Part shown: piece after piece, positions 409 through 25,795 of the stretch
Numbering within the stretch: position 1 is the first letter of the stretch
Layout of the letters: each line of letters opens with the position of its first letter
The notes under the pieces: model-generated
Told to the model about the DNA's origin: nothing
Databases searched by the model: none
What the model saw: the letters and a program-made list of their open reading frames with translations, nothing else
IMG/VR virus record: IMGVR_UViG_3300040801_000838
Coordinates: 1-29,651 of that record
Origin: a virus
Strand: one strand, 5' to 3'
Length of the DNA: 29,651 nt
Made by a program: the position numbers and the translations under genes

Positions 409-972
409 ATGCCGAAGAAAGTAAATGATGTCCTAGCCCTTATTCGTCGAGTGAGTGGTAAGACTACCGCCCTTGATATGTTGCTAGAGTTCGAGAAGAT
501 TCTAGACCATGTCAGCATCTACGCATATAAGAACTGGATTATGGGAGAGCTGGTAGAAGGACCGGATATGGACCGCTACTGGTTCAAAACAACCTGGATG
601 TATCCTTATAAGTCGATGCCGGACCCAGAAGGTTCGATGCGACTAGTGAAGTATGGTTGTAAAGTCTATTTCAGCAAGGATGTCTTTATTGAGACTCAGC
701 GTGTTCTTGACCCTTCCGATACAGAAGGTGACGAGACACATCAACCAAAGAAGGCGCAGGAAAAGAGAATCCCAGTTTGGCTGGTAACGATTGAGATGCC
801 GCGCAAGTTTATTGATGAAGCATACGAAGGCATTCTAGAGTTCGAAGACGAAGAAGTTGATATTGAAGATATTACAGCAGCGTGGGATGAGGAAATCACC
901 GGAGACCAACAGGAAGAAGCCGATGATGATGCAGACGATGCTGAAGAGAATGAACAACAAGGTATGCAGTAA
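409..972 (+). CDS. Conserved T4-like phage protein with acidic tail, unknown function
   Basis: This 187-residue soluble protein starts 22 nt after a late promoter, with ACGGAG about 8 nt before the ATG. The central part carries WIMGELVEGPDMDRYWF, YPYKSMPDPEGSMRLVKYG and IPVWLVTIEMPRKFIDE, a pattern I associate with conserved proteins of T4-like phages that have no assigned function. The last 45 residues are extremely acidic and low in complexity. It overlaps the next gene by one base (TAATG), so the two are probably translationally coupled. A virion or assembly role is plausible from late expression but not shown. Confidence 0.75.
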   Translation: MPKKVNDVLALIRRVSGKTTALDMLLEFEKILDHVSIYAYKNWIMGELVEGPDMDRYWFKTTWMYPYKSMPDPEGSMRLVKYGCKVYFSKDVFIETQRVLDPSDTEGDETHQPKKAQEKRIPVWLVTIEMPRKFIDEAYEGILEFEDEEVDIEDITAAWDEEITGDQQEEADDDADDAEENEQQGMQ

Positions 973-1697
973 TGGGTATTCGTAACGAAGAGCTAAAGAA
1001 CCTCGTTCTACCGTTGATTAGCATTGACGAGTTTGAGCCGAAGCTTGGTACAACCGAAGAGGTAATCGTTGTCGCATTCTACTGCAAGGATGAGCTACCT
1101 GCGTATGACCTTGATGATTTTATTGACAAGAGTGTCGTTGAGGTATTGGACAGCGAAGTAAGTCCAAATCCTGACACGCACGGTAACTATCTTGTTTTTG
1201 TCGAGTTCAAGCGTCAACCAAACTTTTGGACTAAACTCTATAAGCTTCTCGACGATATTGAAAGAGTAACAGGTGAGATGGAATGGCGCGTAAAGCCGTA
1301 TCTCTCCGATAAGAAGTATCCTCTAAAGTCTAAGGAAATACAAAAGCTCGTTATCACTCGCGTTGAAGAGTATGTTCCTAAGTCCGACTTCAATCTAACT
1401 ATGGAAGACTATCTTCGTAATAGTGATTTGACTGGGTTAGAAATAACCGAAGGCTATATTGTATTCGAGCGTTCTGGACAGAAGCTTGTTTTAGATTTAG
1501 TAGACTTCGGTGATACAGAAGAGCTAACAGAGAAACTCAATCTTAAAGAATCCTATCTCGACCTAATGGCAACATCGTCTGCCCTTACTAATCTTCGCTC
1601 CATGCTTGGAGAAGGTTGGGATATTTCGACCATTGACACATATTTTTTCATCACACATAACAACGATAACCGGTCGATTGTCGTAAGGAGAAAGTAA
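972..1697 (+). CDS. Conserved T4-like phage protein, 241 aa, unknown function
   Basis: The product starts with the segment NLVLPLISIDEFEPKLGTTE and contains EVIVVAFYCKDELPAYDLDDF and NYLVFVEFKRQPNF, a signature I associate with a protein family of T4-like phages usually left as hypothetical. It has no membrane segment, signal peptide or nucleotide-binding motif. It sits in a chain of one-base TAATG overlaps with the preceding 187-aa protein and the following spanin, so all are likely made late from the promoter at 380. A structural or assembly role is an inference from position. Confidence 0.75.
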   Translation: MGIRNEELKNLVLPLISIDEFEPKLGTTEEVIVVAFYCKDELPAYDLDDFIDKSVVEVLDSEVSPNPDTHGNYLVFVEFKRQPNFWTKLYKLLDDIERVTGEMEWRVKPYLSDKKYPLKSKEIQKLVITRVEEYVPKSDFNLTMEDYLRNSDLTGLEITEGYIVFERSGQKLVLDLVDFGDTEELTEKLNLKESYLDLMATSSALTNLRSMLGEGWDISTIDTYFFITHNNDNRSIVVRRK

Positions 1698-2119
1698 TGC
1701 TTGGTTTTGGTTTGACTGGCAAGGTTGCACTTGGCGCCGGTGTCGTCATCTTAGCAATGAGCGGCGCGTTTTATCTATACTTCAATCATGCGCAAGAAAA
1801 GATGAATGAACAGGCTGCGCAGATTGAGATACTACAGAACGCTAACAGCACTCTTCAAGGAACGATTGTTCGCCAACGAGAAGAGTCGGCACGACAGGCG
1901 CAGAATCTCAACAACCTCAACGATCGCCTCAATCGTATTCGTCGCGAATCGAACGACATGGCTGAGCTATTGGCGAGACACGACCTCAAGTATCTTGCAT
2001 CGAAGCGTCCCGGATTGATTGAGAACCGCGTCAACCGAGGCACACAGGATGTCTTCAATCAGCTCAAGGAACTGAGCGACCCGGATAGCTACGAAGTGAA
2101 GCGGGAGGAAGAAGAATGA
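1697..2119 (+). CDS. Probable inner-membrane spanin (i-spanin, Rz-like)
   Basis: The 140-residue protein has one N-terminal membrane segment (about residues 9-29, short cytoplasmic side) followed by a long periplasmic heptad-like coiled coil (about 33-90) and a charged tail. The stretch LLARHDLKYLASKRPGLIE resembles that of i-spanin-like proteins in T4-like phages. I-spanins span the periplasm with an o-spanin to fuse inner and outer membranes in the last step of lysis of Gram-negative cells. The next gene, overlapping by ATGA, encodes a lipoprotein, the expected partner. An unrelated membrane-anchored coiled-coil protein cannot be excluded. Confidence 0.7.
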   Translation: MLGFGLTGKVALGAGVVILAMSGAFYLYFNHAQEKMNEQAAQIEILQNANSTLQGTIVRQREESARQAQNLNNLNDRLNRIRRESNDMAELLARHDLKYLASKRPGLIENRVNRGTQDVFNQLKELSDPDSYEVKREEEE

Positions 2120-2472
2120 AGACTCTCCTTCTTTTAGCATCATTGCTCTTGCTTTCTGGCTGTTTTCATGCTACAATACCAGCACAGACTGATACTTTGG
2201 AGCTCACATATATTCACCCATCAGCACCGGCAGAGATGACGCTGCGTGAAGTGAAATGGAGAGTGTTCAATCGTGAAGAGCTACTAAAGTATCTTGAAGA
2301 AAACAAGGATGTTGAGATTGCGCTGTTCGCAATCGAAACAAAGGATTATGAAAACCTTGCGCTAAACATGCAGGAGATTATTCGGTATGTTCGAGAGCAG
2401 AAGGAAATCATAATCTACTACAGAGAAACATTGCCTGACCCAACGAAGGGAGGTGATAGCGAGGAGAAATAA
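2116..2472 (+). CDS. Probable outer-membrane lipoprotein spanin (o-spanin, Rz1-like)
   Basis: The N-terminus is a textbook lipoprotein signal: Lys2, a leucine-rich core and lipobox LSGC with Cys16 as the acylation site. The mature protein has about 103 residues and contains [20 protein letters not shown] followed by a helical segment ending KEIIIYYRE, which resembles a lipoprotein found with spanin genes in other large phages. It would sit in the outer membrane and contact the i-spanin encoded just upstream (ATGA overlap). It is longer than lambda Rz1 but within the range of separated spanin pairs. Assignment rests on lipobox plus context. Confidence 0.7.
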
Positions 2473-3245
2473 TGAAAGACTATTACAAGATTCTTGGTGT
2501 CGAACGCAACGCAAGCGAAGACGAAATCAAGAAGCAGTATAGACGCCTCGCTAAAAAGTATCACCCCGATGTAAGCACCGAAGCCGAAGCTACTCAAAAG
2601 TTTCAGGAACTTCAAGAAGCTTACTCCATTCTAAAAGACCCTCAGAAGAAAGCCCAGTATGATATGGGCGGTTCCGCTGCTAATGGTGACCGTGTGCGAC
2701 AGTATTATTCCAGCAACGGTGGGGCGGACCCTTTCATGAATATTCATGATTTGTTCGAATCTCTCCGCGGGCGGCAACAACGGCGCACTATTTACCGTAC
2801 CACCATATCGCTTGAGGAAGCTTTTCATGGAACAATACGACAGGTGAATGATAAGAGCTTTCGTATTCCTCCCGGTCTTCGCACAGGCAATCGCATTTCG
2901 GTAGACGATTTTTGGGTTGATGTGGTCGTTCTTCCACACGCTAAATATAAGAGAGCAGGGGATGATTTGCTAGTTGAAGCAAACATCACAGCCGCAGAAG
3001 CGATGCTCGGCGTGAAGCTGGATATCGATCATATCGACCGAAGCCATTTACGCTGTGATGTTCCGGCTGGCACACAACCTGGACAGATACTTCGACTTCG
3101 TGGAAAAGGTATGCCCAACCCTGAGGTAACGAATATCAGAGGCGACCTTCTTGTTCAAATCAACATATCCATCCCGCGTAACTTGACAGACGAACAAAAA
3201 GAAAGTATCATTAGCTTAGGGTATCGCAACGAAATACAAGTTTAG
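2472..3245 (+). CDS. DnaJ/CbpA-like co-chaperone (J-domain protein without zinc finger)
   Basis: Residues 3-65 form a J domain with the invariant HPD at 31-33 (KKYHPDVST), which stimulates the ATPase of DnaK-type Hsp70. A short Gly/Phe-like linker follows, then the two beta-rich substrate-binding domains (about 105-250) with the typical [19 protein letters not shown]. The CxxCxGxG zinc repeats of DnaJ are absent, so it is closest to CbpA-type J proteins, and at 257 residues it is shorter than CbpA. No Hsp70 is in the window, so it would work with host DnaK. It overlaps the o-spanin gene by one base and is followed 8 nt later by clpA, pairing two chaperone functions. Confidence 0.88.
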
Positions 3246-3253
3246 GAGAACTT

Positions 3254-5521
3254 ATGTCCGCAGACAACAACGAGCATATCAATCGCGTTCTTGACCGTGC
3301 AGCTACATTTGCTGAAGAAAACGAACACGAATATCTCACCGCAGAACATCTGTTGTGGTCGCTTCTTCAAGAAAAAGAAGTTCAGCACATCATCACGAAT
3401 ATCGGCGCAAAGCCGAACATCATTCGTAACACGGTGGAGAAATACATCAACACGAATGCGCTAAAGGTTCCGAACGATGGGCTGACAAAGTATCAAGGCC
3501 CGCTACAGACAACCGCCCTGCGCAGAATCTTTCAACGGGCATTATCGAATTTCATCTTCTCCGGACGCAGCGAGATTACACCAATCGGACTTCTTCTGTC
3601 AGTCATGTGCGAGGAAAACAGCCACGCATATTACTTCCTACAGAAGGGTGGCGTAACAAGAGACCGCATCATCAACTATATGAAGAAGCACGATGTGGAT
3701 GGTGCTGGTGTTACTACAGAATCTCCGCTCGAGGAATTCTGCCGCAACCTCAACAAGGCGAGCAAGGAAGGACAGATCGATCCTGTTATCGGGCGTGAAA
3801 CAGAGCTTGAGGATACGATTGAGGTGTTGGCGCGACGGAAGAAGAACAACATCATCTACGTCGGTCATCCGGGCGTGGGTAAGACCTGTCTCGCAGAGGG
3901 GCTGGCGAAGAAGATTGTAGATGGTGAAGTACCCAAGGCGCTACAGGCTAAGGAGGTCTATAGTCTCGATATCGGTGCGCTCGTTGCCGGCACGAAATAC
4001 CGCGGTGACTTTGAGGAGCGACTGAAGGCGGTGCTGAAGGAGATTGAGAAGAAGGGCAATGTCATTCTATTCATTGATGAAATCCATATGATTATGGGTG
4101 CAGGATCAGCATCACAGGGCACGATGGATGCGAGCAATCTGCTCAAGCCAATGCTCGCCAAGGGAACGCTGCGGTGCGTTGGTGCTACCACCCTCGACGA
4201 ATACGAGACGCACTTTGAGAAGGACAAGGCGCTGAAGCGTCGTTTCCAGCGATATGAGATTACGGAGCCATCCGTCGATGATACGAAGCGCATCATGCGC
4301 GGACTGGTGAAATACTATGAGGACTTCCACGGCGTCGAATATGACCTCGAAGCTCTCGACACCGCTGTCGACCTCTCGATGCGCTACATGAAGAACAAGC
4401 ATCTGCCGGACAAGGCGATTGACATTATGGACGCGGCTGGTGCGAAGGCGAAGCTCGAAGAGGTTGAGAAGGTAGACCTGGAGCGTATTATGGCAACGGT
4501 CTCGAAGATTGCCAAGATTCCGGTCACAATGATCGACATCAAGGAGAACGATGCGCTGGCAAGCCTCGACGCGAAGATCAAGGATAAGGTCTACGGACAG
4601 GACAAGGCCATCGACACCGTTGTCGAAGCGATTGTCATTTCTAAGAGCGGATTGCGCGACACCAGCAAGCCAATCGGTTCCTACCTATGCGTGGGTCCGA
4701 CGGGTGTGGGTAAGACCTATTTCGCGAAACAGCTCGCGACGGCAATGGGCGTGGAGCTCATCCGCTTCGATATGAGCGAATACAACGAGAAGCATTCCAT
4801 TGCACGGTTGATCGGTGCTCCTCCTGGCTATGTCGGACACGGTGAAGGACAGGGTGGTTCGGGGCAGCTCATCACAAAGGTGGAGCAGCATCCAAACTGC
4901 GTCCTCCTGCTGGACGAGGTCGAGAAGGCTGCACCGGAGGTGCTACAGGTTCTCCTCCAGGTGATGGACGATGGTCGATTGACGAGCAGCACAGGTAAGA
5001 CGGTCGACTTCACGAACACCATTCTGCTGATGACCTCCAACCTTGGCGCAAGGGAGAGCGAGAAGCTCTCCATCGGCTTCGGCACACAGGTGAAGACAGG
5101 TGAGGATGATAAGGCTATCAAGCAGTTCCTCGCACCGGAGTTCCGCAATCGTTTGGACGGTACGCTGAAGTTTGGCAAGCTGTCGCGTGAGGAGATGCGC
5201 CTCATCGTTAGCAGAGCGATTGACGAGCTGAATGAGATGCTGGCGTCCAAGAAGGTGCGCGTGACCTGTCTTGCTGCGGCGCGTGATTGGCTTGCAGAAC
5301 ACGGCTACGATCCTGCCCTCGGCGCAAGGCCGCTGGCTCGGTTGATTCAGGATGAGGTGAAGAAGCCGATTGCGAAGGAGATTCTGTTCGGTGATTTGCA
5401 GAACGGTGGTAAGGCTCGATTGGCTGTCGTGGATGACAAGCTGGCGATCACCTATCGTCCTCCAAGCGGTCACACGCCTACGGTTGACGACATGCTGAAC
5501 GAGAACTCATCCGAAGACTAA
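3254..5521 (+). CDS. clpA: ClpA-type AAA+ unfoldase with ClpP-binding loop
   Basis: The protein has 755 residues, close to E. coli ClpA (758), with a Clp N-domain (about 1-140) and two AAA+ modules and no ClpB middle domain. Module 1 has Walker A GHPGVGKT (204-211), Walker B ILFIDE (271-276) and pore segment KYRG; module 2 has Walker A GPTGVGKT (481-488), Walker B LLLDE (551-555), pore segment GYVG and sensor 2 GARPL. The tripeptide IGF at 607-609, within LSIGFGTQ, sits where ClpA has the IGL loop that docks onto ClpP; the IGF version is the one used by ClpX. No clpP is present, so it likely recruits host ClpP. The ribosome site AGGAG precedes the ATG. Confidence 0.93.
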
Positions 5522-5546
5522 GACAAGACGAAGAGCGGGAGACGAG

Positions 5547-5570
5547 AGAGGGCGAGCAATCGCCCTCTTT
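5547..5570 (+). terminator. Intrinsic terminator after clpA
   Basis: A perfect 9-bp stem, AGAGGGCGA (5547-5555) with TCGCCCTCT (5560-5568), closes on the stable GNRA loop GCAA (5556-5559). The T-run after it is short (TT then CC, with the last stem T), so termination may be partial. It lies 26 nt after the clpA stop and 13 nt before a late promoter, so it separates the two units. Confidence 0.8.
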
Positions 5571-5582
5571 CCGTATCTATTA

Positions 5583-5973: not shown

Positions 5974-6152
5974 ACGAGATGCGCAGGCTAATGGAGGCGG
6001 TCGGTCAAGGACAACGGCAAGATAGTCTAGACGATCAACTAAGAGATCTAATCCTTATTGCGAATCAGCATGGAATGTATGATGCCGCAGATTATCTTAC
6101 GCATGTCATCGAAAAGAACTACGATTCGCTGTATACTTTTAAGGAAGAATAA
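5970..6152 (+). CDS. Small protein with capsid-targeting-like leader, 60 aa
   Basis: I chose the ATG at 5970 (ATGA overlap with the previous stop) because it gives the N-terminus MNEMRRLMEAVGQG, matching the MNEMRKLME leader of the protein at 5612. LME would be the prohead-protease site. The rest is a short helical segment (DQLRDLILIANQHGMYDAADYLTHVI). The frame is open 8 codons further upstream, but that extension lies inside the previous gene and spoils the shared leader. A packaged internal head protein is the inference. Confidence 0.68.
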   Translation: MNEMRRLMEAVGQGQRQDSLDDQLRDLILIANQHGMYDAADYLTHVIEKNYDSLYTFKEE

Positions 6153-6595
6153 TGAGTCTAACACCAAGTAGAAAGAGCGTTGTAATGATGACCAACACAG
6201 GTCGTGAGCACAACATCACAGGCAAGGCAGTACGCGGAGACAGCTACTATGGGCACACAGATGGTGTTCATACGGTTCAAGTATTTTTCACGAATTTCAC
6301 GGGGCGTTTCGGAATTCAAGGCACGCTCGTAACTGAACCGCAGGACGGCGATTGGTTTGATATTAATCTTAATACAAGCCTAAGTGTAAATAACACAACG
6401 CCATATGCACAGTTTCCTATCAATCCTCTTGCTCCGACGGGTAGAGATGGCGATACAGGAACATTGGCGTTCACGTTTGTGGGCAATTTTACTTTCTTAC
6501 GAGCGATTGTAGACCGGTCGTATATTCCGGAACCTGCCGAAAATGACTCAACAACCGGGCTTGGTCATATTGACAAAGTCCTTTTAGCAATGTAA
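6152..6595 (+). CDS. Probable virion protein (beta-rich), 147 aa
   Basis: The product is rich in beta-prone and aromatic residues, with FFTNFTGRFGIQGTLVTEP and a later DWFDINLNTSLSVNN, ending in TGLGHIDKVLLAM. It resembles small structural proteins that precede fibre genes in T4-like phages, but I cannot name a T4 counterpart. The ribosome site AAGGAAG precedes the ATG and the gene overlaps its neighbour by one base. It lies immediately before two fibre-like genes in the same late unit, so a fibre adaptor or fibre-associated role is likely. Confidence 0.65.
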   Translation: MSLTPSRKSVVMMTNTGREHNITGKAVRGDSYYGHTDGVHTVQVFFTNFTGRFGIQGTLVTEPQDGDWFDINLNTSLSVNNTTPYAQFPINPLAPTGRDGDTGTLAFTFVGNFTFLRAIVDRSYIPEPAENDSTTGLGHIDKVLLAM

Positions 6596-17698: not shown

Positions 17699-18122
17699 GA
17701 TAGAATGCTTTGACAAGGAGTTTCACTTCTTGTCAAACTTCTACATCGCCCCTATCGAGTATCGAGGGCGCCGCTGGTGGTCCTCGGAGGCAGCATACCA
17801 AGCGATGAAGACGGTGAGTGAAGAAGAGCAGAACGAGATTCAGCAAGCAAGGCTTCCTCATATCGCCAAGCGGCTTGGTAAGACGGTAACGATGCGCGAT
17901 GATTGGGACGATATAAAGGTTGACATCATGCGTGAGATTGTGCAGGCAAAGTTTGACCAGCACGAACTTCTTCGAGATATGCTTCTGGCAACAGAAGATG
18001 CTATACTAGAGGAAGGCAATCATTGGGGAGATACTTTTTGGGGTGTCTGCCGAGGCAAAGGCCTAAATATGTTGGGTAAGATACTAATGGACCTAAGAGA
18101 AGAATATGCAAAATCTAAGTGA
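17667..18122 (+). CDS. NADAR-domain protein (YbiA family)
   Basis: The 151 residues match the NADAR/YbiA family along their length: FLSNFY (22-27), SSEAAYQAMK with Glu41, the P-x-x-A-K-x-L-G segment, MRDDW followed by KVDIMREIVQAKFDQ, and HWGDTFWGVCRGKGLNMLG at the C-terminus. NADAR enzymes act on ADP-ribose-linked substrates; some remove ADP-ribose from guanine in DNA or RNA, reversing DarT-like toxins, and the E. coli YbiA is an N-glycosidase on riboflavin intermediates. The start at 17667 overlaps the clamp gene by 32 nt and is the only in-frame ATG before the domain. It overlaps the DpdA-like gene by 17 nt. Confidence 0.88.
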   Translation: MNTSSQQERCKIECFDKEFHFLSNFYIAPIEYRGRRWWSSEAAYQAMKTVSEEEQNEIQQARLPHIAKRLGKTVTMRDDWDDIKVDIMREIVQAKFDQHELLRDMLLATEDAILEEGNHWGDTFWGVCRGKGLNMLGKILMDLREEYAKSK

Positions 18123-19596
18123 ACTGAACAGAGACTACGCAATTTTTCTTCCAGCCATCTCGCAATTTTATGCGAGCATGGTTCGGAAGATACAACCGCC
18201 GGAACGGATTCCTGCGGCGTTTGAGAAAGGCCAAGAGGGAATGAACTTCCTCAAGCCGGACGGGTACTTCCATTATAACCGCGCACTCTATTCGGCGGGC
18301 CATGCAAAAATAGATTTAGAAAAAAGCATTGCCCATGAGCCGATGGTCTGGACAAGAGACAGAGATCAGACGCTGTTAGTATCCGACTCCGGCGGCTTTC
18401 AGATCGGTAAGGGCGTCATCAAGTTCGACTGGGACCGCTTCTTCGAGAAGAAGGGAGACCGCGGCTATAAGGGTGCAGCCGACCGTGTTCGTGAAGGTAT
18501 TCTACGCTGGCAGGAGCATGTCTCCGAATGGTCGATGGTGATGGATATTCCGACCTGGGCCACGCAACGTCCGGAGACTGGACTAAAAACCTTTGACGAC
18601 TGTCTGAAAGCCACCCTACACAACAACGACTTCTATGTCGAGAACCGCACCGAAGGTATGACAAAGTTCCTCAATGTCATTCAGGGCGGCAATTGGGAAG
18701 AGTCGGTGCGATGGTACGATGCTGTGAAGGATTATCCCTTTGAAGGTTGGGGCATGGGCGGACAGAACATGTGCAACATGGAGGTGGCACTAAAGCGTCT
18801 CATCACTATGCGTGATGATGGTATGCTCGAAGGTAAGGATTGGATTCACTTCTTAGGTACATCGAAGCTTGATTGGGCGTGTATGCTAACCCTCATTCAG
18901 CGTCAGTTGCGTAAGACTAACCCGAATCTCACCGTGTCCTTCGATTGTGCATCTCCGTTCGTAGCGGTTGCAAATGGTCGCACATACTCTTCGCCTATCC
19001 TAACACCGGATAAGTGGGGATATGTAATGACCTTTACATTTGACGATCGCAAGTTCAAGGGTTCGGACATTCCGTTCCCGTTCCAGTCGGAGATTGGCAA
19101 GCGACTAACGATTGGCGATATTTGCCACTATGGTCCGGGCGACCTCAACAAGATTGGCAAGGAAGGTGCAACGAGTTGGGATAGCTTCTCGTATGCTCTA
19201 CTAATGGCACACAACACCTACCAGCATATTCGTGCGGTGCAAATGGCTAACAACCTTACTGAGATTGAGATTGAAAATTATCAGCCGCATCCTCAGGATT
19301 GGCGTAAGAAGTCCGGTAAGAATGGACAGAAGCCGATTTCACAATGGGTACCGAATAACATTCTATACTTTGCTACGCTGGTGGAAGAGATTTTCTCTTC
19401 GGACCATCCGTTCTCAGTAATTGATGATAATATTGCGTTCATTCAAGACCTCAGCATCTCACGCAATCGTAAGACGAATGCCTTGTTCGATGAGCTGTTC
19501 GGTGATGAGCTTACAGAGGTCGATGAAGATACATTTGCTTCGTTGGATAACGATAAGATGGAAGAGTTGGAACACACTCTTGATGGAGATGAATAA
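18106..19596 (+). CDS. dpdA: DpdA-like guanine transglycosylase (7-deazaguanine in DNA)
   Basis: The 496-residue protein has the tRNA-guanine transglycosylase fold signatures: DSGGFQIGKG (94-103), VMDIPTWA (145-152), GMGGQ, HFLGTSKLD and FDCASPF with Asp280 as likely nucleophile (compare DCVLPTR of bacterial TGT). AHNTYQHI near the C-terminus matches the conserved HN helix. The CxCxxC zinc-binding cluster of tRNA enzymes is absent. This pattern fits phage DpdA proteins, which exchange guanine in DNA for a 7-deazaguanine such as preQ0 or a derivative, shielding DNA from host restriction. QueE and a QueD-like protein occur 2-5 kb downstream. Activity on tRNA is not excluded. Confidence 0.82.
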   Translation: MQNLSELNRDYAIFLPAISQFYASMVRKIQPPERIPAAFEKGQEGMNFLKPDGYFHYNRALYSAGHAKIDLEKSIAHEPMVWTRDRDQTLLVSDSGGFQIGKGVIKFDWDRFFEKKGDRGYKGAADRVREGILRWQEHVSEWSMVMDIPTWATQRPETGLKTFDDCLKATLHNNDFYVENRTEGMTKFLNVIQGGNWEESVRWYDAVKDYPFEGWGMGGQNMCNMEVALKRLITMRDDGMLEGKDWIHFLGTSKLDWACMLTLIQRQLRKTNPNLTVSFDCASPFVAVANGRTYSSPILTPDKWGYVMTFTFDDRKFKGSDIPFPFQSEIGKRLTIGDICHYGPGDLNKIGKEGATSWDSFSYALLMAHNTYQHIRAVQMANNLTEIEIENYQPHPQDWRKKSGKNGQKPISQWVPNNILYFATLVEEIFSSDHPFSVIDDNIAFIQDLSISRNRKTNALFDELFGDELTEVDEDTFASLDNDKMEELEHTLDGDE

Positions 19597-19760: not shown

Positions 19761-20280
19761 AGATCGTGTTGCTAACGATATTACCTACTTCACAGGATTT
19801 GAGGTAGAGAATACTGCGGCATACGGTAAGCTGACATTATTTGTTGTAGGGCTTCATTCATTCGAGGAGATAATGAATGTGCTTCACAACTACTATGCCC
19901 ATGACGGGGTCCATCACATTTATCTTGGTGCGAACAAAAGCTTCAACCAAGACGAAGGATGGCGCCATGTTGTGGATGCACTTCTACACGAAGGCTTTTG
20001 GGTAACGCTGGATTATCCTCTTCGTCTGCATAATTTTGTGATGCGGCAGTTCAACCAAGAAATGAGACACAGCCGTTTCATTCCAATGATTTCGGTTGAG
20101 ATTCCTAACATTGAAAGCTATAATTATAATACGGTGCTAAAGATTGACGACATTTCGATGGACCATTCTAACCCAGGCGTGTGGTGTCATCCATTACACG
20201 ATTTGATGGACAGAAAAGTCTTTACTCCGTGGAGCGATTACGAAAGCGACGAAGTGATTGACAATGGCAAAGATACATAA
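19744..20280 (+). CDS. Conserved phage protein, 178 aa, unknown; next to dpdA
   Basis: I chose the ATG at 19744 because GGAG lies about 6 nt before it; a longer frame from 19675 lies inside the small gene upstream. The protein starts MERPYKDRVANDITYFTGFE and carries GKLTLFVVGL, HHIYLGANKSFNQDEGW, FIPMISVEIPNIESYNYN and NPGVWCHPL. The combination looks like a conserved T4-like phage family, but no function is known to me. The aspartates, histidines and the VWCH motif could form an active or metal site. Position directly after dpdA makes a link to base modification possible. It overlaps the peptide deformylase gene by 17 nt. Confidence 0.7.
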   Translation: MERPYKDRVANDITYFTGFEVENTAAYGKLTLFVVGLHSFEEIMNVLHNYYAHDGVHHIYLGANKSFNQDEGWRHVVDALLHEGFWVTLDYPLRLHNFVMRQFNQEMRHSRFIPMISVEIPNIESYNYNTVLKIDDISMDHSNPGVWCHPLHDLMDRKVFTPWSDYESDEVIDNGKDT

Positions 20281-20770
20281 GGTTTTATATTGGCCTGATC
20301 GCCGCCTGAAGGAGGTTGCCGAGCCTGTCGAAAGCTATGCGGCAGAGCAGCAGTACATCGAGGAGATGTTCGAGACGATGTACGCCAACAAGGGCATCGG
20401 TCTTGCATCTACGCAGCTGGGCATTCCGAAGCGCATCTTCGTCATGGACACCACTCACGGTGGGGCTGGCACGAAGCGCGCCTTCGTTAATCCTAAGATC
20501 GTCTTCGGCGTCAACGAGGTCACAATGACTGAAGGGTGCCTCAGCTTCCCCGGCATTGGCGTGGAAATGACGAGATTGGAGAGCATCATCATTGAGACGC
20601 TCACGCCGGAGGGCGAGGTTGAGGAGGTCGAGCTACACGGTCTCGACGCCGTTTGCGCACAGCATGAGATGGACCATCTCAACGGCATCGTCTTCTTCGA
20701 CTATCTCAAGAAGACGAAGCGCATGATGATGGAACAAAAGCTACGGAAAAATATAAAGAAGCTGAAGTAA
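20264..20770 (+). CDS. def: Peptide deformylase
   Basis: All three motifs of the family are present: [10 protein letters not shown] (GxGLAAxQ), EGCLSFPG (EGCLS, Cys metal ligand) and QHEMDHLNG (HExxH, two His ligands and Glu). The enzyme removes the formyl group from the first methionine of new proteins using Fe2+ or Zn2+. At 168 residues it is close to bacterial length and longer than the shortened deformylases I associate with cyanophages. I use ATG at 20264; a TTG two codons earlier is possible. The start overlaps the previous gene, and the sequence is notably GC-rich, suggesting host origin. Confidence 0.95.
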
Positions 20771-20771
20771 G

Positions 20772-21110
20772 ATGAAAGGACCAACAGGTTTGACAGGCCC
20801 TACAGGCCCTACAGGACCTACGGGGTATACTGGTCCTCAAGGTATCCGAGGCCCTACTGGTCAGATTCACACACTTCGTGTTCGTTATGCCGATACTACT
20901 CCGCAAGAATACCCCGAGATTATATGGAAGGAAGTCTTCGTCTTTCACCTGGTGAAAGTGCAGCTTGCGAATGGTGGGGAAGAACGCGCAATCTTCGAGA
21001 AGCTTTTTCGAGGGCGGGTTCCGGCTCACCGCGGCCAAAGTGGTTACTACATTTATCGCAGGCCGAAAGACCATTTCTTGTTAGAGCTAAAAGGAAAACA
21101 CAATGACTAG
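20772..21110 (+). CDS. Collagen-repeat protein with C-terminal domain, 112 aa
   Basis: Residues 3-32 form ten consecutive Gly-x-y triplets ([20 protein letters not shown] and on to GPTGQI), the collagen repeat found in phage fibres and some bacterial surface proteins. A roughly 80-residue domain follows ([54 protein letters not shown]). Triplet repeats make trimers. It starts 1 nt after the deformylase stop, far from the fibre genes, and no late promoter precedes it, so its role is unclear. It may be a minor virion protein. Confidence 0.75.
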
Positions 21111-24681: not shown

Positions 24682-24891
24682 ATGAGTAGGTCTAAAGTTT
24701 GGTTTGGATTATCCTCACCGGAGGATAAGAGCGTTGTTCTCGAATGGTTAGATGAAAACTGCCCTGACCGTTTTGTATGGTACTGGGTGCCTGCGTCGGC
24801 TAGACGACGAGTAGAATTTGAGGCATCGGAAGACGCCAATCATTTTCGTGAATTCCTACAAAATGAAGGATTAGTGATTTATGAAATATAA
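24682..24891 (+). CDS. Small phage protein, 69 aa, possibly from a leaderless mRNA
   Basis: I use the ATG at 24682: the frame is open upstream through the HIT-like gene, but only this start follows the consensus promoter. The product begins MSRSKVWFGLSSPEDKSVVL and contains DRFVWYWVPASARRRVEFEA, then NHFREFLQNEGLVIYEI. No ribosome site precedes the ATG, because the -10 element ends 6 nt before it. It overlaps queE by 11 nt. No domain is recognised; the tryptophans and arginines in the middle suggest a small folded domain. Confidence 0.65.
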   Translation: MSRSKVWFGLSSPEDKSVVLEWLDENCPDRFVWYWVPASARRRVEFEASEDANHFREFLQNEGLVIYEI

Positions 24892-25795
24892 GTATAGTGA
24901 AATTTTTAAGTCGATACAGGGAGAAGGACATTACACAGGTGTTCCTACTCTTTGGATTCGTTGGTTCCTGTGTAACCTTCAATGCTCCGGCTTCGGTCAA
25001 AAGAATCCCGCAGATGAATCTACGTGGGAGCTACCGTATAAGGAGTTTGATGTCTCACAGGTCAAGCGCATTGAAGACCTTCCTGTTTGGGACAAGGGTT
25101 GCGATAGTTCGTATTCTTGGGCTAAGAAGTTCAAGCATCTTTGCCCCGCCGGAACAGCGGAAGAAATTGCTGACAAGCTTGAAGGGCTAATGGAGAACGA
25201 ATACAACCCATATAAGAAGTTCACTATTGTCAAGGATTACGGAGAAACATCTTCGGTGCAAGACATCCACCTATGTATGACGGGTGGTGAGCCGATGATG
25301 AAGCAAACACAGGCGGCGCAGATTGCCGTTTTGAAAGAGCTAGAAGCTCGCACCAATCTCCCTCGTTTTATCACCATTGAGACAAACGGCACACAAGAGC
25401 TGACCCCCGAGATGCGAGAAGTGATCTCAAACTTTAGTCGTAAGGGAGAATGGTTCTGGTCGGTGTCGCCGAAGCTACTGCACACCAGCGGTGAGCCTGC
25501 GGACCGCGCTATTCATCCAGACATTGTGAAGAGCTATATGGATGTTTCTCCGTTCGGTCAGCTCAAGTTCGTTGTGCGCGGCACTCCGGAATCCTGGGAT
25601 GAGCTAGAGCAGCGAGTGTATGATTTTAGAATGGCGGGTGTGAACTGGCCTGTTTGGATTATGCCTGTCGGTGCTACGGTCGAAGAGCAATCGACTGAGA
25701 CGGTTGGTGAGATTGCGAACGAGGCTATCGAGCGCGGTTATAATGTCGCTGCTCGCGTTCATTGCTACCTGTGGGGAAATAAGATTGGGACCTGA
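24881..25795 (+). CDS. queE: QueE-like 7-carboxy-7-deazaguanine synthase (radical SAM)
   Basis: The protein starts with the QueE signature SEIFKSIQGEGHYTGVPTLW, then RWFLCNLQCSGFGQ, and later MTGGEP, TIETNGT, WSVSPKLL and QLKFVV. QueE converts 6-carboxytetrahydropterin to 7-carboxy-7-deazaguanine using SAM and a 4Fe-4S cluster. The usual CxxxCxxC motif is split: Cys31 and Cys35 are in place, but the third Cys appears to be Cys74 in GCDSSYSWAK, matching C-D-T-x-Y-x-W of normal QueE after about 36 inserted residues. At 304 residues it is longer than most QueE (about 210-230). It shares the window with DpdA and QueD-like genes. Confidence 0.88.
   Translation: MKYKYSEIFKSIQGEGHYTGVPTLWIRWFLCNLQCSGFGQKNPADESTWELPYKEFDVSQVKRIEDLPVWDKGCDSSYSWAKKFKHLCPAGTAEEIADKLEGLMENEYNPYKKFTIVKDYGETSSVQDIHLCMTGGEPMMKQTQAAQIAVLKELEARTNLPRFITIETNGTQELTPEMREVISNFSRKGEWFWSVSPKLLHTSGEPADRAIHPDIVKSYMDVSPFGQLKFVVRGTPESWDELEQRVYDFRMAGVNWPVWIMPVGATVEEQSTETVGEIANEAIERGYNVAARVHCYLWGNKIGT

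Follow-up and report, generated by a model that had tools for sequence, protein, structure and literature searches.

A ClpA unfoldase of large phages with a conserved IGF docking loop, probably belonging to a largely phage-encoded protease

Clp proteins of jumbo phages, with ClpA, ClpP, ClpS and ClpX occurring together in one phage, are already described in the accessible text of published accounts (PMC6102473, PMC7824862, PMC11242549). According to that text, phage Atu_ph07 encodes ClpX, ClpA, ClpB, ClpP and ClpS (PMC6102473), and the available part of another account lists ClpA as one of the widely shared genes in one large-phage lineage (PMC12619734). The J-domain protein of phage RB43 is functional with the DnaK of its host, as stated in the accessible portion of the report (PMC3486835), and the loops by which Clp ATPases dock follow the consensus (L/I/V)-G-(F/L) (PMC8745299). 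In the accessible text covered by our literature search, subscription literature lying outside it, we found nothing on the docking loop of phage ClpAs, on a dnaJ-clpA pair or on co-variation of the loop with its ClpP pocket; the Paride paper does not mention Clp. Here we analyzed a phage clpA gene in a stretch of 29,651 nucleotides, positions 1-29,651 of IMG/VR record IMGVR_UViG_3300040801_000838, hereafter the window, which is a genome fragment (29.6 kb) without a near-identical phage DNA among 50,697 records. Its main features are given in Table 1.

Table 1. Features of the dnaJ-clpA region, in window coordinates
Feature	Position	Strand	Remarks
Virion structural protein	409..972	+	phrog_12928
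Virion structural protein	972..1697	+	phrog_13138
dnaJ-like J-domain protein, 257 aa	2472..3245	+	Pfam PF00226, PF01556; J domain with HPD, and DnaJ_C
AGGAGA ribosome-binding-like site of clpA	3244..3249	+	overlaps dnaJ stop codon (3243-3245); direct reading
clpA	3254..5521	+	ATG at 3254, stop at 5521; 755-aa ClpA unfoldase with Clp_N, D1 and D2, without ClpB-type middle domain
D1 Walker A GHPGVGKT (residues 204-211)	3863..3886	+	
D1 pore loop KYRG (residues 248-251)	3995..4006	+	
D1 Walker B ILFIDE (residues 271-276)	4064..4081	+	
D2 Walker A GPTGVGKT (residues 481-488)	4694..4717	+	
D2 pore loop GYVG (residues 525-528)	4826..4837	+	
D2 Walker B CVLLLDE (residues 549-555)	4898..4918	+	
IGF tripeptide (residues 607-609)	5072..5080	+	predicted ClpP-docking loop
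Terminator-like hairpin, 12 pairs, 7 G-C	5544..5571	+	directly 3' of clpA; consensus match, counts not above shuffles
Gene 3' of clpA	6152..6595	+	phrog_13657; weaker match to virion structural family

The gene encodes a genuine ClpA and belongs to the already described class of phage Clp proteins. Its product contains the Pfam domains Clp_N, AAA, AAA_lid_9, AAA_2 and ClpB_D2-small, can be aligned with E. coli ClpA over residues 7-735, and is assigned to phrog_4871 ('ATP-dependent protease'). Among the NCBIfam models the ClpA model TIGR02639 is the top-scoring one by far, and the score of 894.6 bits lies below its equivalog cut-off of 993.15, as is expected for a divergent phage branch. The protein has an N-domain and two AAA+ modules, the architecture of ClpA, and its Walker A and B motifs, both pore loops, sensor 1, arginine fingers and sensor 2 are all intact. 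Thus, the proposal in an earlier note on this DNA that the gene encodes a full-size ClpA with both ATPase modules intact is confirmed by the Pfam architecture and the motifs. A middle domain of the ClpB/ClpC type is absent, as it should be in a ClpA, and we rejected a ClpB-type disaggregase identity on the basis of this absence and of the IGF loop; ClpB (1qvr) aligns with the protein in two stretches, the best running from 1qvr residue 513 and query residue 396 onward. The AlphaFold model of the protein (mean pLDDT 82, pTM 0.64) has as its closest structures ClpC and ClpA from protease complexes, with the ClpAP entries at Z 31-34.

The IGF tripeptide aligns onto IGL at residues 617-619 of E. 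coli ClpA, in agreement with the placement in the earlier note, and this position is the ClpP-binding loop in the solved ClpAP (PMC7707817). It lies in D2 and conforms to the docking consensus given above; in the AlphaFold model, residues 604-616 form a flexible loop of low confidence between helices 599-603 and 617-625. When we compared the window with 80 viral loci, together 63 distinct ClpA sequences, the tripeptide was IGF in 63 of 63, the window included. Clustering at 80% identity, with each cluster represented by a single sequence, gave 40 clusters with a mean identity of 52%. Over these, the three IGF columns were all invariant; of the 20 other columns in the segment 600-622 none was, and of the columns in the whole ClpA alignment 15% were. 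These sequence comparisons support strong purifying selection on the docking loop in the clade of the window. Since the tripeptide varies among the named jumbo phages (see below), its invariance here would reflect selection on ClpP docking rather than a structural requirement. The earlier note had also regarded IGF as the loop of ClpX and deduced that the protein may compete with host ClpX. However, IGF occurs in 58 of 80 bacterial ClpA-related loci, followed by LGF in 8 and VGF in 7 (a sample rich in Treponema), so that it is not specific to ClpX, and the IGL of E. coli ClpA is one docking version among several. Because IGF is common in bacterial ClpA loci and fits the general Clp ATPase consensus, no special competition with ClpX is implied.

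Neither ClpP nor ClpS was detected within the window by E. coli queries and phage profiles, and the window has no ClpX gene either. The earlier note took no phage ClpP to be present, which reflects the length of the fragment instead: the nearest relatives G001 (L002), G024 (L007) and G004 (L010) encode clpP on the strand of clpA, 31-37 kb upstream of it, and since the window begins only 3.2 kb upstream of clpA, a missing clpP is uninformative. Whole-record searches of 30 related phage records identified ClpP in 23, ClpS in 20 (21 including one weak match) and ClpX above its cut-off in 13, and more ClpP genes are found in additional fragments beyond these records. All ten named complete or near-complete jumbo phages have ClpP and ClpS matches, the ClpS match of XaC1 being below the cut-off. 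The nearest long relative, G001, encodes the dnaJ-clpA pair, ClpP (270.5 bits with NF001368, cut-off 249), ClpS, ClpX, Hsp20 and FtsH, the same set as in PA5oct, and in both phages clpX, hsp20, clpS, ftsH and clpP lie within about 20 kb. This cluster (L235, G001 64500-84000; L236, PA5oct 168500-182500), is located near queD-like genes and forms a phage proteostasis island. Most of the phage ClpXs examined carry IGF too, so that the two phage unfoldases would dock on one and the same phage ClpP. As the relatives possess their own ClpP, ClpS and ClpX, the window ClpA is probably part of a phage-owned protease rather than a borrower of the host protease, and a clpP would be encoded elsewhere in the genome from which the window derives.

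We considered whether the phage ClpPs might be head-maturation proteases, and rejected this since NF001368 scores far above NF045542 for the ClpPs of G001, PA5oct, RaK2, 121Q and Atu_ph07, of which only those of G001 and Atu_ph07 pass the NF001368 cut-off. The RefSeq records of PA5oct (L236 11850-12521), RaK2 and Atu_ph07 label ClpP as 'head maturation protease'. Several phages have a second, weaker ClpP-like paralogue, which was left out of our reading of ClpP.

The dnaJ-like gene ends 8 bp before the start of clpA, and no zinc finger was detected in its product. The pairing is widespread: of 91 phage loci, 72 have a dnaJ-like gene with HPD that precedes clpA by no more than 150 bp. The two genes are surrounded by virion structural and spanin genes, and 83 phage loci share the gene at 6152-6595, placed no more than 4 kb downstream of clpA. 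The Rz/Rz1-like spanin pair (window 1697-2472) adjoins dnaJ-clpA upstream, and about 55 related loci have such a pair in the 4 kb that precede clpA. The search for HSP70 in the 30 phage records was negative, so any DnaK serving the J protein would be that of the host. A peptide deformylase is encoded at 20258-20770 of the window, and in phage Phosso a deformylase gene stands between dnaJ and clpA, a placement that may hint at a link to N-terminus-dependent degradation.

Taken together, we consider it probable that the ClpA of this phage branch is the unfoldase of a protease whose genes are for the most part those of the phage. As a hexamer, ClpA would unfold substrates and thread them, with its IGF loops docked in the hydrophobic clefts on a ClpP 14-mer that probably, in this lineage, is of phage origin as well. 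Phage ClpS may hand over substrates of the N-degron type or others, and the J-domain protein, presumably co-transcribed with clpA in a late structural module, probably recruits host DnaK to unfolded phage proteins. Virion proteins would thereby be folded or removed during late infection.

On the other hand, the earlier note proposed that the phage ClpA could hijack the ClpP of the host to degrade chosen host proteins. In a wider form of this view, it would dock on the host ClpP 14-mer and turn it towards substrates of host or phage, competing with the ClpX and ClpA of the host. IGF does match the consensus that docks bacterial ClpP (PMC8745299), and there is no obstacle to docking on the ClpP of the phage as well as on that of the host. 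Moreover, we found no ClpP, ClpS or full ClpX in the contigs L073 and L076 (309-328 kb) despite their IGF ClpA and DnaJ, so protease self-sufficiency is not universal in these phages. These contigs and their near-copies L074, L075 and L077 (119-329 kb in all), likewise with IGF ClpA and DnaJ and no ClpP found, are candidate cases of a genuine reliance on the ClpP of the host. However, most relatives carry their own ClpP, ClpS and ClpX, and the loop changes together with the phage ClpP cleft in two lineages (below), as expected if the partner is the phage ClpP. We therefore regard the use of host ClpP as unlikely to be the main role of the window ClpA, and keep that part of the proposal as a possible extra activity or as a possibility for the L073/L076 lineage.

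To place the phage proteins, we built a tree of the phage ClpAs with 17 bacterial ClpA and related sequences, a narrow bacterial sample. The phage ClpAs form a single clade outside these 17 sequences with a support of 100/100, the rows nearest to the window ClpA being L006, L004 and L002. Such a single clade argues for an old acquisition of clpA and its long retention in large phages, not for a recent capture from a present host. The RaK2-like ClpAs (L165, L166, L167, L169, L170, L171, L245, L246, L248 and L249) and that of SCTP-2 (L168) have intact ATPase motifs and a loop about three residues shorter in several of them, and most of their docking tripeptides have drifted: IGM in 121Q, IGV in RaK2 and Vibrio phage 2.275.O, MGM in Kaldavass and XbC2, MNM in Munch, fENko-Kae01 and SE_PL, IGG in Hallingskeid and IGY in SCTP-2; the tripeptide of the RaK2-like phage XaC1 (L171) is VGF. 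All the main phage ClpPs retain the catalytic Ser-His-Asp. We compared their docking clefts, which we take to be formed by L48, F49, Y62, L114 and R192 in the numbering of mature E. coli ClpP. These are mostly conserved in the ClpPs of phages with an IGF ClpA, with exceptions including PA5oct (L114S, R192K), and the cleft is altered in all seven phages with a RaK2-like or SCTP-2 ClpA that were examined (RaK2, 121Q, Munch, Kaldavass, XaC1, Vibrio phage 2.275.O and SCTP-2). In the RaK2-like clefts F49 is replaced by W or Y and L114 by G or T, and R192 is lost or K; the cleft of SCTP-2 is partly altered (F49Y, F82M, M92T, R192G). As SCTP-2 nests inside the IGF clade on the ClpA tree, apart from the RaK2 group, loop and cleft look like having undergone two separate changes in step. 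This co-variation is suggestive of a private lock and key in the drifted phages, and only suggestive because it amounts to about two independent events, with SCTP-2 a long branch. In a stronger version, the J protein, with host DnaK, would be dedicated to ClpA-ClpP and not to ClpB, and in some phages co-evolution would have carried loop and pocket beyond the bacterial lock and key, precluding cross-reaction with host Clp; we hold this version to be rather doubtful.

A third possibility is that ClpA, the J protein and host DnaK remodel or disaggregate virion proteins without proteolysis, in the manner of ClpB. A protease-free chaperone would not need the ClpP loop that is invariant in the clade of the window, and the window ClpA lacks the ClpB middle domain, by which ClpB cooperates with DnaK. 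The location of clpA, preceded by dnaJ and embedded in virion structural genes, and the RaK2-like ClpAs with shortened, drifted docking loops yet intact ATPase motifs, are in favor of such a role, which the accessible text of Iyer et al. suggests (PMC7824862). For the window ClpA we consider it very improbable; it fits the RaK2-like phages with their degraded loops better than the clade of the window. Besides the contigs L073 and L076 and the small number of loop-cleft events, two observations weigh against the phage-encoded protease that we prefer, namely, the lack of ClpP, ClpS and ClpX in the window itself, which is a fragment, and the detection by LC-MS/MS of the ClpA of Klebsiella phage fENko-Kae01, whose ClpP entry carries no such note. 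A role of ClpA as a virion protein was set aside, since this detection came from an ultrafiltration sample, which according to the fENko-Kae01 paper cannot prove the place of ClpA in the particle.

Elsewhere in the window, positions 18106-19596 encode a 496-aa protein, without a Pfam or PHROG match, whose DSGGFQ motif resembles that of tRNA-guanine transglycosylases and which may be DpdA-like. A QueE-like radical SAM protein (24881-25795; phrog_2076, no Pfam match) has the N-terminal motif CNLQCSGF instead of the usual CxxxCxxC, and together with the DSGGFQ protein it may serve a deazaguanine modification of the DNA. A small protein at 20772-21110 contains collagen-like GPT/GPQ repeats resembling those of tail fibre proteins.

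Phage Clp genes are often taken to serve the hijacking of the host protease; our results suggest instead phages in possession of the greater part of a cellular system for regulated proteolysis, with its docking interface under selection. The diverged loop-pocket pairs offer a natural test set for the specificity between Clp ATPases and ClpP. A connection between the J protein and ClpA, suggested by the conservation of the dnaJ-clpA pair, is testable in a cultured relative such as Pseudomonas phage PA5oct. As to the described systems, neither the docking loop nor the dnaJ-clpA pair nor the loop-pocket co-variation is discussed in the accessible text on the Clp proteins of Atu_ph07 (PMC6102473), and the J-domain protein of RB43 is phage-encoded like that of the window, although the accessible text mentions no ClpA partner gene (PMC3486835). 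Bacterial ClpA (TIGR02639; E. coli ClpA) shares with the window protein the domain order, the Walker motifs, the pore loops, the arginine fingers and a docking loop of the form hydrophobic-G-hydrophobic, but E. coli ClpA has IGL where the phage protein has IGF, and bacterial clpA is paired with clpS whereas the phage gene is paired with dnaJ. The jumbo-phage ClpAs of phrog_4871 (PA5oct, Atu_ph07, Phosso and RaK2/121Q) fall into the same clade as the window ClpA. Within it, the RaK2-like phages and SCTP-2, unlike the window, lack dnaJ and have unusual docking tripeptides except for the VGF of XaC1, whereas PA5oct, Atu_ph07 and Phosso have both IGF and an upstream dnaJ, as the window does.
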